In this document: positions 57,356 through 61,456 of the stretch, piece by piece | How the letters are laid out: the number at the start of each line of letters is the position of its first letter | Position numbering within the stretch: position 1 is the stretch's first letter | NCBI GenBank assembly: GCA_947474395.1 | Contig: CANJID010000010.1 | Coordinates: 1 to 64,000 of the forward strand | Direction of reading: 5' to 3' | DNA length: 64,000 nucleotides | Source of the DNA: Caulobacterales bacterium | GTDB taxonomy: Bacteria; Pseudomonadota; Alphaproteobacteria; Caulobacterales; Caulobacteraceae | Notes under the pieces: generated by a model | The model's input: only the letters and a program-made list of their open reading frames with translations | What the model was told of the DNA's origin: nothing | Databases searched by the model: none | Position numbers and translations under genes: made by a program

Positions 57356-57610
57356 ATGTCGAACGATAAGAAACAGAACCTGCAGGATACTTTCCTCAAC
57401 AGTGTCCGCCGGTCCAAGACCCCGCTGACCATCTTCCTCGTGAACGGCGTCAAGCTGCAGGGCGTGGTCACCTGGTTCGATAATTTCTGCGTGCTGCTGC
57501 GCCGCGACGGCCAATCGCAGCTCGTCTACAAGCACGCCATTTCCACCATCATGCCCGCCCAGCCGGTGCAGCTCTATGAACCTGGGGCGGAGGGCGAAGT
57601 CGAAGATTGA
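57356..57610 (+). CDS. hfq: RNA chaperone Hfq
   Basis: 84 residues. Sm1 and Sm2 motifs are intact: [59 protein letters not shown]. It pairs sRNAs with mRNAs as a hexamer. The C-terminal tail is short and acidic ([11 protein letters not shown]), as in other alphaproteobacteria. The 102-bp gap after dat may hold its promoter. The stop overlaps the hflX start. Confidence 0.97.
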
Positions 57611-58959
57611 GCCAATCCCATAGTTCCGCGCGTTCAGGGGGGATGGATCGTCGTCCCCCCGTAGAACGCGCGCTTGTCGTGCACCCCCAGCGCTCGGTGA
57701 AGTCCCTGCGCTCAGCACAGGCGCGCTTGGAAGAAGCCGTCGGCCTCGCCCGCGCCCTCGACCTCGAGATCGTCGGGACCGAGATCGCGCCCCTGCGCCA
57801 GCCCAACCCCGCCACCCTGTTCGGCAAGGGCAAGGCTGCGGAGATCGGGGCCCTGGCCACGGAGCTTGAGGCCCATGTGGTCGTGGTCGACGACGCCCTC
57901 TCGCCGATCCAGCAGCGCAATCTGGAGAAGGCCTGGAACACCAAGGTCGTCGACCGCACGGGCCTGATCCTGGAGATCTTCGCCCGCCGCGCCCGCACGG
58001 CCGAGGGCAAGCTGCAGGTCGAGCTGGCGCGGCTGGAGTACGAGCGCTCGCGGCTGGTGCGCACCTGGACCCACCTGGAGCGCCAGCGCGGCGGCACGGG
58101 GGGCACCGGCGGTCCCGGCGAAACCCAGATCGAGCTCGACCGGCGTCAGATCGCCGACCGCATCGTCAAGCTGAAGCGCGAGCTGGTGGAGGTGCGCCGC
58201 ACCCGCACCCTCCACCGCCAGGCCCGCAAGCGCACGCCTTTCCCGGCCATCGCCCTGGTGGGCTACACCAACGCCGGCAAGTCGACCCTGTTCAACCGCC
58301 TCACCGGAGCGGGGGCCCTGGCCGAGGACATGCTGTTCGCCACCCTCGACCCAACGGTCCGGGCCCTGCGCCTGCCCGGCGGTCGCCCGGCGATCCTGTC
58401 CGATACGGTGGGTTTCATCTCCGACCTGCCGCACGAGCTGGTCGAGGCCTTCCGCGCCACCCTGGAGGAGGTGCAGGAGGCCGATGTGATCCTGCACGTG
58501 CGCGACATCTCCAGCGCCGACAGCGAGGCGGAGGCGCAGGACGTGCGCACCGTCCTGCGCGAGCTGGACCTGGAGGAGGCCGATCCGCGGCTGATCGAAG
58601 TCTGGAACAAGCTCGACCTCGTGCCGGAAGAAGACCGCCCCATGATCGAGACCCGCGCCGCCCGGGCCGGAGAAAGCGGCGGACCGACCGCCGCGGCCCT
58701 TTCCGCCGTCACCGGAGAGGGGTGCGACAACTTGTTCCGTATACTGGCGGACAAGGTGGATCATGCGCCGCCGGTCGAGGTTCTGGCGCCCCCCGGTGAC
58801 GGCCGCGCCGTGGCCTGGCTCTACCAGCACGGCCGGGTGACGGCACGGCACGACGAGGCGGACGGGGCCATGCGGCTGTCTGTTCGCCTTGATAATCAAG
58901 CGCTTGGACAGTTCGAGCGCCTGTTTCCCGAAGCCGTCCTGAAGGCCGCCGCGGAATAG
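57607..58959 (+). CDS. hflX: GTPase HflX
   Basis: 450 residues. N-terminal HflX domain ([91 protein letters not shown]), the GTPase G1 [11 protein letters not shown]3 DTVGF, G4 NKLD. It splits stalled ribosomes. The start is TTG 57607, overlapping hfq by TTGA; ATG 57643, with AGGGGGG directly abutting, is an alternative and would drop the first 12 residues. The hfq-hflX pair is classic. Confidence 0.93.
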
Positions 58960-59000
58960 GCGCTCTGCGTCGGCGGGCGCGGCGGCGGCGACCCCGCCGT

Positions 59001-59041
59001 CATGGTGTATTTGGCATTAAGCTTACCTGCCGTACACCATG
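59001..59041. repeat. Inverted repeat at the hflX/S-layer-like gene junction
   Basis: CATGGTGTA (59001-59009) and TACACCATG (59033-59041) are perfect 9-bp inverted repeats with a 23-nt spacer. Right after them CGTTTACT occurs twice (59049-59056 and 59068-59075). The interval is clearly less GC-rich than its surroundings. It lies between converging genes and could be a bidirectional terminator or the scar of a mobile element. Confidence 0.55.
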
Positions 59042-59088
59042 TACTTGACGTTTACTGTACTTCCTACCGTTTACTTTACAGAGCGGCG

Positions 59089-59472
59089 CTACATTCGCCT
59101 GAATGGTGAGTGTGGGTTGCCCTCGCCGATAATGCCGAGGTTCTGGGCGAAGTTGATGTAGCGGTTCTCCAGGCTGAAGCCCTGGTAGTAGGCGTCGTTC
59201 AGGTCGGTGGTGTTGCTCGCCGAATTGACCAGGTAGCTCAGGCCGCCCTGGGTCGGGGTCTTGCCGGTGAAGAACTGGTAGGACTGCAGGGCCACGGCCG
59301 TGTCGGCGTCGGCGGTGTTGACCACATAGTATTGGGCCTGGGCGTCAGAGATCTGGCCGTTGCGCGAAGCCTGGGCGATCTCGTCGAGGATGGCGCTCTG
59401 GGTCGCGTTGGGCGCGAGGCCGATGTGGACGTTGGAGTACATGCTCGCGAGCTGAGCCGATGTGTAAGCCAT
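59089..59472 (-). CDS. Truncated RsaA-like S-layer N-terminal (DUF4214-type) protein
   Basis: 127 residues from ATG 59472, with AGGAG about 10 nt upstream. It aligns by eye with the N-terminus of Caulobacter RsaA: MAYTSAQLASMYSNVHIGLAPNA, then TAVALQSYQFFTGKTPTQGGLSYLVNS, NTTDLNDAYYQGFSLENRYINFAQNLGI. In RsaA this N-terminal part anchors the S-layer to LPS and precedes a long Gly/Thr-rich export and crystal region. Here the protein ends abruptly with GEGNPHSPFRRM and a stop, and no continuation is found in any frame before hflX. So this is a fragment or a mini-anchor. A leading 33 codons upstream in frame are not part of the family. Confidence 0.75.
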   Translation of the reverse strand: MAYTSAQLASMYSNVHIGLAPNATQSAILDEIAQASRNGQISDAQAQYYVVNTADADTAVALQSYQFFTGKTPTQGGLSYLVNSASNTTDLNDAYYQGFSLENRYINFAQNLGIIGEGNPHSPFRRM

Positions 59473-59716
59473 GGACGTGTAGCTCCTGGGCGACGGGGGG
59501 AGGGCGCCCGGCGTTGCGCCGCGTGATTGCGGCTTGAAGGGGTGACGATTGACTTGGTGAAATCCAACCATCGCCTCGCAAATTTTCCGATCTTGCCTGT
59601 ATGGGCGTATCGGCGGCGAGTGTTGGCGGACCTGAGGACGCCCATTGGGCTGGGCGATGAGGTTCTAAAATAGAATTCTTCGCCACTCCTCTGGCGGTTA
59701 TTAACGTATGCAAAAT

Positions 59717-59744
59717 GCTATACAGCGATGATTAGTTCCGTTAA
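59717..59744 (-). promoter_or_regulatory. Candidate promoter of the S-layer-like gene
   Basis: On the minus strand TTAACG (59744-59739), a 16-bp spacer and TATAGC (59722-59717), each matching 4 of 6 positions of the sigma70 consensus. It would give a leader of about 240 nt before ATG 59472. Long leaders are plausible for abundant surface proteins. Confidence 0.35.
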
Positions 59745-59862
59745 GTCGATAATAAACTTAGAATATTGTCGTCATTGCTTAGCTTGTACTTACTATTTTT
59801 CTACCGTTCCGCGCTGATTCCGGCCGCGCGGTTGGGGTCGGGTTCGCGGGGAGGGCGGTGAT

Positions 59863-59889
59863 CCCGGTCGGGCGCTGGGCCCGACCGGG
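59863..59889 (-). terminator. Terminator-like hairpin after the hemerythrin gene
   Basis: A perfect 11-bp stem (CCCGGTCGGGC / GCCCGACCGGG) with the 5-nt loop GCTGG. It lies 11 nt beyond the hemerythrin-protein stop on the minus strand. There is no T tract, so it may act with Rho or as an RNA-stabilising hairpin. Confidence 0.65.
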
Positions 59890-59900
59890 ACAGGGCCGAA

Positions 59901-60416
59901 CTAGGCCAGGGCCGTGCCCGTCAGGGTGGAGGTCTTCGGGCGAGGCGTGCCGCCGGCCTTGTAGTCGGCGATGAGCTGGGTCTTCTCGGCGGCCATGCGC
60001 TCGCCGAGGTCGTCCATGTCGAGGCCGGCCTTGCGCGCCTGGGCGAACATGCCCTCGACCCGCTGCTCTTCCTCCTTCACGTGGTGCTCGATCATCTCGG
60101 ACAGCACCTTGACTTTGGCGTCGTAGAACTCGTCGTCCGGGCCGCCGGCCTCGATCTCGGCGATCAGCACCTTGGCGCCGTCGTGCTCGACATAGGCCTC
60201 CTTCAGGAGGTCCTCTTCGACCGCGCCCTCGCAGGCCGGATAGAAGATGTCTTCCTCGATCTTGGTATGGACGGTCAGCTCCAGGCAGATCTGTTCGGCA
60301 AGGGCGCGCTTGCGGCCCTCACCCTTGGCGTTCTCGAAGCTAGCGAACAGCTCTTCGACCTTGCGGTGGTCCGCTTTCAGCAGGGCGATCGCGTCGAGCT
60401 TAGGGGCGTTGGCCAT
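59901..60416 (-). CDS. Hemerythrin HHE domain protein
   Basis: 171 residues. The four-helix hemerythrin pattern is visible: ALLKADHRKVEELF, ICLELTVHTKIEEDIFYPAC, YVEHDGAKVLIAEIE and EMIEHHVKEEEQRVEGMF, with the His and Glu ligands for a di-iron centre. It may bind O2 or NO, or sense iron. ATG 60416 is chosen, with a GGAGAA ribosome site; the longer frame upstream is not family-like. The C-terminal tail is Thr/Pro-rich. Confidence 0.92.
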   Translation of the reverse strand: MANAPKLDAIALLKADHRKVEELFASFENAKGEGRKRALAEQICLELTVHTKIEEDIFYPACEGAVEEDLLKEAYVEHDGAKVLIAEIEAGGPDDEFYDAKVKVLSEMIEHHVKEEEQRVEGMFAQARKAGLDMDDLGERMAAEKTQLIADYKAGGTPRPKTSTLTGTALA

Positions 60417-60506
60417 GGGGGGTTCTCCAGTTGGAACTGGATGAGCCAACGGCGTCGCCAACGGATCGTTCCGACTTCTAACCTTTGATGGATTTGGCCG
60501 AGGGGC

Positions 60507-61319
60507 CTATTCCGCGGCCTTGCGCTCGGCGGCCTTGGCCTGGTCCCACAGGCCTTCCATCTCCGGCAGGGTCGCGTCCGTAGGCGTACGCCCCGCGCCC
60601 GCGAGCGCCTGTTCGATGAACTGGAAGCGTCGCACGAACTTGGCGTTGGCCGAGCGCAGGGCGTCCTCCGGATCGACCTCCAGCTTCCTGGCCAGGTTGG
60701 CGCAGACGAACAGCAGGTCGCCCAGCTCCTCGCGGGCCTTGGCCTGGTCGCCGGCCTCGATCTCGGCCTCCAGCTCGCCCAGCTCCTCGTGCAGCTTCTT
60801 GAGGATCGCCGCGGCGTCGGGCCATTCGAAGCCGACGCGGGCGGCGCGCTTGGTCAGCTTGGCGGCGCGCAGCAACCCCGGCAATCCCACCGGCACGTCG
60901 TCCAGCACGCTGCCAACCTCGCCTTTGCCCTTGGCCTGGCGCTCGCCGGCCTTGATGGCTTCCCAGCCCTCGGTCTGCTCGGCGATGTCGGCATAGGAAT
61001 GCTCCCCGAAAACATGGGGGTGACGGCGGATCATCTTGTCGCAAACCGCGTCGACTACGCCGTCAAAGTCGAAGGCGCCTTGCTCCTGGGCCATGCGGGC
61101 GTGGAAGACGACCTGGAACAGCAGGTCCCCGAGCTCGTCGCGCAGGTCCGTCAGGTCGTTCCGCTCGATCGCGTCGGCGACCTCATAGGCCTCCTCGACC
61201 GTGTAGGGGGCGACGGTGGCGAAGCTCTGCTCGATGTCCCACGGGCAGCCGCCAACGGGGTCGCGCAGGCGCGCCATGATGGCGATCAGGCGCTCGATCG
61301 GCGGGGGCTCGTGGGCCAT
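60507..61319 (-). CDS. mazG: Nucleoside triphosphate pyrophosphohydrolase MazG
   Basis: 270 residues with two MazG domains. MazG-1: RLRDPVGGCPWDIEQSFATVAPYTVEEAYEVADAIERNDLTDLRDELGDLLFQVVFHARMAQE. MazG-2: EWPDAAAILKKLHEELGELEAEIEAGDQAKAREELGDLLFVCANLARKLEVDPEDAL, with EExxE and DLLF metal motifs. It hydrolyses noncanonical NTPs and lowers (p)ppGpp. ATG 61319 fits, upstream codons are not conserved. A typical full-length MazG. Confidence 0.95.
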   Translation of the reverse strand: MAHEPPPIERLIAIMARLRDPVGGCPWDIEQSFATVAPYTVEEAYEVADAIERNDLTDLRDELGDLLFQVVFHARMAQEQGAFDFDGVVDAVCDKMIRRHPHVFGEHSYADIAEQTEGWEAIKAGERQAKGKGEVGSVLDDVPVGLPGLLRAAKLTKRAARVGFEWPDAAAILKKLHEELGELEAEIEAGDQAKAREELGDLLFVCANLARKLEVDPEDALRSANAKFVRRFQFIEQALAGAGRTPTDATLPEMEGLWDQAKAAERKAAE

Positions 61320-61456
61320 GGGCAAGCCTGGGGATGCGGGGCAGGGGAGCTTCCCGCGATAGACTGAGCCGCGCGGGGCCACAAGCCGTCTAAGCCCCTA
61401 GCTAGGGCGGCCGCACCGCCCTATGTGGGACGCACGACATCGTCTCGGGGGGCCGC

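Follow-up and report, generated by a model that had tools for sequence, protein, structure and literature searches.

Anchoring of RsaA, the S-layer protein of Caulobacter crescentus, was reportedly abolished by small changes within its first ~225 residues in the work of Ford et al. in 2007. The N-terminal domain of this protein (Pfam RsaA_NTD, PF19198; structures 6t72 and 6z7p) is the closest described system to the locus analysed here. In excerpts from the structural study (PMC6978808), RsaA_NTD comprises residues 1–249, of which 2–243 were built; a Ca2+ loop at residues 77–100 is tied to LPS binding, and a contact is formed between Asp30 in one subunit and Lys142 in the adjacent one. Excerpts from a second source (PMC3034196) state that RTX proteins carry an uncleaved secretion signal at the C-terminus, that in C. 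crescentus the genes directly downstream of rsaA are rsaD and rsaE, and that the C-terminal half of Sap, the S-layer-associated protease of the same organism, resembles the N-terminal region of RsaA. The RsaA anchor domain is, on this evidence, also carried by non-S-layer proteins. According to part of a 2025 survey (PMC12700997), an S-layer is found in 7.8% of Caulobacteraceae species.

The window, a stretch of 64,000 nucleotides from a Caulobacteraceae genome, contains a 127-codon open reading frame (ORF) with the start of such a domain (MAYTSAQL...GEGNPHSPFRRM*). Its predicted coordinates hold (Table 1), and the strand, absent from the original prediction, is minus; the plus strand over the same interval has a stop codon in the corresponding frame. 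Very probably the ORF is a paralog, truncated at its 3' end, of a secreted RsaA-like protein with an N-terminal anchor, and it is probably a young pseudogene.

Table 1. Features around the RsaA-like fragment, in window coordinates, and a further locus of the same genome (last line)
Feature	Position	Strand	Remarks
hflX, left neighbour	57607..58959	+	convergent with the fragment; stop at 58959
Low-G+C segment between hflX end and break	59000..59118	.	G+C 0.46 versus 0.69 for the window; only short or weak matches elsewhere
127-codon ORF, probable 3'-truncated RsaA_NTD gene	59089..59472	-	start ATG 59472, stop TAG 59091-59089
Nine non-homologous codons, NPHSPFRRM	59092..59118	-	read past the break
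RsaA-homologous part, codons 1-118	59119..59472	-	Pfam RsaA_NTD positions 2-64 of 185
Ribosome-binding site AGGAG	59483..59487	-	ten bases ahead of the ATG; common to the C59 paralog
Hemerythrin-domain protein, right neighbour	59901..60461	-	beside hflX in 0/12 relatives
mazG	60507..61382	-	directly adjoins hflX in 5/12 relatives
Likely S-layer locus	G000:C11:18913-30628 (partly L036)	-	RsaA_NTD protein and type I secretion genes

An RsaA-like start and the point at which it ends

The likeness to the RsaA N-terminus on which the original prediction rested is far above chance. The ORF scores 98.9 bits against the RsaA_NTD profile, above the curated membership cut-off of 27, and a phmmer search of solved structures matched three sequences, all of them RsaA (6t72, 5n8p and 6z7p; E 4e-28 to 9e-27). 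The alignment begins at the start methionine, spans window residues 1–116 at most (it ends at 114–116, depending on the structure) and is free of gaps against RsaA residues 1–114. It was implied that only the part following the LPS-binding domain had been lost, and this is wrong, as most of the domain itself is also missing. The ORF retains 63 of 185 profile positions (about a third of the model), or about half of the 243-residue anchor domain seen by cryo-EM, and so falls short of a complete domain with ~185 profile positions and the 6t72 fold. It is a fragment of an RsaA_NTD member and not a complete member. The lattice domain, several hundred residues that follow the anchor in RsaA, is likewise absent from the ORF, which stops after nine non-homologous codons. 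Compared with RsaA, the window copy therefore stops before half of the domain and has neither the lattice domain nor the C-terminal end.

Protein and RsaA_NTD profile searches of the same genome each gave 23 matches. The 22 other copies cover at least 165 of the 185 profile positions, which leaves that in the window as the sole short copy. Its closest paralog, on contig C59, belongs to a 791-codon open frame (757 codons when counted from the methionine that aligns) and shares 80% protein identity over residues 1–119 and, by blastn, 84% DNA identity. The last nine residues of the window ORF do not align with the continuation of any of the 22 paralogs.

The position of the break was located by a blastn search of 58900–60500 against 19 stretches of the same genome, 18 containing the 22 other copies and one the window copy. 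Leftward, DNA similarity to C59 stops at 59117; for the other 21 copies it ends at 59117–59119 in 16 and at 59133–59149 in five that are more distant. In the 5' direction the likeness to C59 extends as far as 59489, just past the ribosome site. No paralog matched anything to the left of 59117 in the 19 stretches, and reading the six frames of 58941–59121 by eye revealed nothing RsaA-like continuing. The statement that the remainder of the gene is missing in all frames is thus confirmed, and a continuation after a frameshift is ruled out by the same two results. Because similarity to the longer paralogs halts at one sharp point, truncation, one of the two explanations first offered, is supported.

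Beyond the break lies the 119-base segment of low G+C content, for which little likeness was found elsewhere. Searched against its own genome, 58961–59130 gave itself and 40 other matches of 16–38 bases; 39 of the 40 fall in the first 46 bases of the stretch, which are the G+C-rich end of hflX. A search with 58996–59122 of 299 family genomes (its own included) gave a single 20-base match in each of five others (E 0.002–0.06), and blastn of 58996–59117 against 105 loci returned only the loci of these five. The stretch 58996–59122 had no plasmid matches; four weak matches to Klebsiella phages (41–42 bases, E 0.1–0.4) were taken as chance, and an exact 24-mer from the stretch was absent from viral contigs. 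Neither a tRNA nor an Rfam match was found at the break, and in the assembly itself there is no repeat at the break and no second copy of the tail. A mobile-element scar was accordingly rejected: the matches in the genome, the family and the phages are short or weak, and plasmids gave none. A second low-G+C stretch (0.42) lies upstream of the fragment at 59661–59835, between it and the hemerythrin gene. The likeness of the two low-G+C flanks was equalled in 28 of 500 shuffles and is unconvincing.

The break follows Gly118 and falls between helices 101–115 and 119–126 in a predicted model of the complete C59 domain. This model (pLDDT 94.4, pTM 0.90) matches 6t72 with E 3.4e-17 and TM 0.93, so that the C59 paralog is predicted to share the RsaA fold. 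The window fragment gave a model of pLDDT 68.7 and pTM 0.47. Averaged over ten-residue blocks, its pLDDT is 69–88 for residues 1–50 and 56–67 for residues 51–120, versus 88–96 for blocks of residues 1–120 in the full domain; residues 119–127 fall under 50. The assigned helices are nearly alike in the two models. The C59 prediction used 18 own-genome alignment rows (C5, C73 and two C7 copies omitted) and that of the fragment used 20 (C5, C73 and one C7 copy omitted). A half-domain deprived of its packing partners fits the low confidence of the fragment's model. Because the alignment to RsaA residues 1–114 is ungapped, Asp30 and the Ca2+ loop region, as numbered in the excerpts cited above, can be placed in the fragment, and Lys142 and all beyond it are lost.

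Expression signals, selection and neighbourhood

The good ribosome site that had been noted is indeed present and is common to C59. The candidate promoter fared less well, as a sigma-70 scan of 58900–60500, which covers that promoter type only, found 0 sites against a shuffle mean of 0.4; the low-G+C stretch at 59661–59835 likewise contains no sigma-70-type promoter. Over the ~240 upstream bases compared, no region common to C59 was seen (score 10.0, shuffle mean 10.4).

The window copy keeps 22 of 22 conserved columns, defined by one residue in at least 90% of the 22 other copies, and differs from C59 with dN 0.130 and dS 0.412. Sequence decay, which might have served as proof of a pseudogene, was thus not detected. 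With six other paralogs used to polarise the changes, six synonymous and five non-synonymous ones fell on the window branch and nine and eight on the C59 branch; 31 were unresolved, so that power is low. As the 118 codons that were kept have not decayed, the truncation may be recent, or some constraint may persist.

Synteny was compared over 3.7–4 kb around hflX in 12 relatives. These were drawn from 41 genomes without another member of the genus, in which the hflX end was matched in 15 others; of the 15, G002, G004 and G022 were set aside because their matches were short or weak. hflX is present in all 12 stretches and mazG in nine, but neither the fragment nor the hemerythrin gene (E up to 1e-5) lies beside hflX in any of them. 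A conserved stand-alone module next to hflX is therefore not seen among these family-level relatives, the 41 source genomes including no member of the same genus. Since the hflX and mazG matches are under 100 bases apart in five of the 12, the fragment together with the hemerythrin gene appears to be an insert specific to this lineage.

The domain elsewhere in the genome and the family

In 12 of the 22 other copies the domain is C-terminal, 2–30 residues from the end of the ORF; in nine it is N-terminal, and one, on C5, was left unplaced, being interrupted by a TAA stop. The 12 share the layout of Sap (excerpts of PMC3034196), in which a complete domain sits at the far end of a longer protein; in contrast, the copy in the window is the cut-short beginning of a protein with the opposite layout. 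A Pfam scan of ten of the C-terminally anchored proteins found that the anchor is preceded by M10/serralysin-like, CAP, CHRD, Calx-beta or RTX parts. Examples are L034:2799-8925 (C57), L035:2939-4465 (C30), L074:1741-3246 (C49), L076:1884-3845 (C73) and L080:5068-7680 (C6). With Sap as the printed precedent in those excerpts, a C-terminal RsaA_NTD looks like a general means of tethering secreted proteins to LPS.

The window protein was matched in nine of 119 family genomes, its own included. RsaA_NTD occurs in at least 29 of 298 family genomes (again including its own), from at least five of 22 genera, with up to 10 matches scored per genome; among the matches listed, all end at profile position 174 or later.

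Damaged copies of the domain, like that in the window, were also encountered. G092:C6:199847-200029 (L086) is a 92-codon piece without either end, in which similarity seemingly halts, by eye, shortly past the window's Gly-Glu-Gly; the window copy lacks only one end. The C5 copy (G000:C5:51643-51939; L075:5647-5940) is interrupted by its internal TAA stop only. In G013:C157:4424-4780 (L085), a copy lies in a 145-codon frame and RsaA-like sequence resumes in another frame, the result of a frameshift or an assembly error.

The genome was also examined for a full S-layer gene, and a likely candidate was found on contig C11. An RsaA_NTD protein of 1074 codons (30628–27404) lies there with matches to PrtD (21920–20298) and HlyD (20187–18913), both over the cut-off, on the same strand and 5.5 kb downstream. 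Its arrangement recalls that of rsaA, rsaD and rsaE, and judging by this layout the gene of the 1074-codon protein is likely the strongest candidate for the genuine S-layer gene. No type I secretion genes were found near the window ORF, as matches to the PrtD and HlyD families above the cut-off are confined to C11 and do not occur on C10. The lone RsaA-like start in the window does not mean that the S-layer has been lost, since a full-length candidate stands near type I secretion genes on C11.

Origin and fate of the fragment

The source of the fragment would have been a gene for a secreted RsaA-like protein anchored by its N-terminus, the gene on C59 being the one it resembles most. An origin from the C59 gene itself is not claimed, as the two are paralogs at 84% DNA identity. 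Partial duplication, or insertion followed by deletion, would have produced the fragment. Its ribosome site, start and 118 codons sit between hflX and mazG, and after Gly118 the unrelated low-G+C DNA supplies nine codons and a stop. The fragment lacks the C-terminal end of its relatives, the end at which type I secretion signals of the RTX class sit, so that the product, if made, would lack it too, and it would presumably be unable to fold into a complete O-antigen-binding domain. These two losses suggest a young pseudogene. The other damaged copies (C5, G092 and G013) were counted in favour of this reading; the lack of decay in the kept codons, the intact start and ribosome site, the retention of Asp30 and the Ca2+ loop region, and a break marked by no repeat, further tail copy or tRNA were counted against it.

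The original prediction also offered a stand-alone anchor module. A functional 127-residue protein, exported and binding LPS alone, could draw on the intact start and ribosome site and on the conserved residues and Ca2+ loop region that are retained, but the idea is not borne out because the anchor domain is itself reduced to 63 of 185 positions. Its model without the second half is of low confidence, inspection by eye shows no signal peptide at the N-terminus and the C-terminal end has been lost, making such a function very unlikely. One relative, G118, does encode a 272-aa protein consisting of little more than RsaA_NTD (G118:C1:2261294-2262112; L091:2295-3113), but its domain is complete (residues 84–269 of 272) and illustrates the form that a stand-alone version takes. 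By eye, this protein has an apparent lipoprotein signal peptide (LAAFGVASC), and it is a genuine candidate for an LPS-binding module that stands alone and may be exported by another route.

An assembly error, fusing the beginning of a paralog to the sequence flanking hflX so that the real gene is longer or elsewhere, would be easier in an assembly of 103 contigs with 23 related copies, and contig C59 ends just 258 bases from where the closest paralog begins. That paralog, however, is only 84% identical in DNA, too divergent for the usual misjoin, and the tail sequence occurs only once in the assembly; we regard such an error as very unlikely.

That the half-domain is made and disturbs the subunit contacts of intact RsaA-like proteins, as a dominant-negative or decoy peptide, is most unlikely, for although it retains the Ca2+ loop region and, by the ungapped alignment, Asp30 of the Asp30–Lys142 contact reported in the excerpts of PMC6978808, no secretion route is visible and no conservation across species was found at the hflX locus of the 12 relatives. 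Little credence can similarly be given to selection of the translated ORF as a half-domain that would modulate intact RsaA_NTD proteins, for example by capping contacts at the Asp30 face.

The window ORF is best regarded as an ordinary truncated paralog, and the size and variety of its family are of more interest than the ORF itself. A literature search on RsaA and its domain found no such family expansion in titles and abstract openings, although its absence from print is not claimed. The genome holds 23 copies of an LPS-anchoring domain, with copies arising and decaying.
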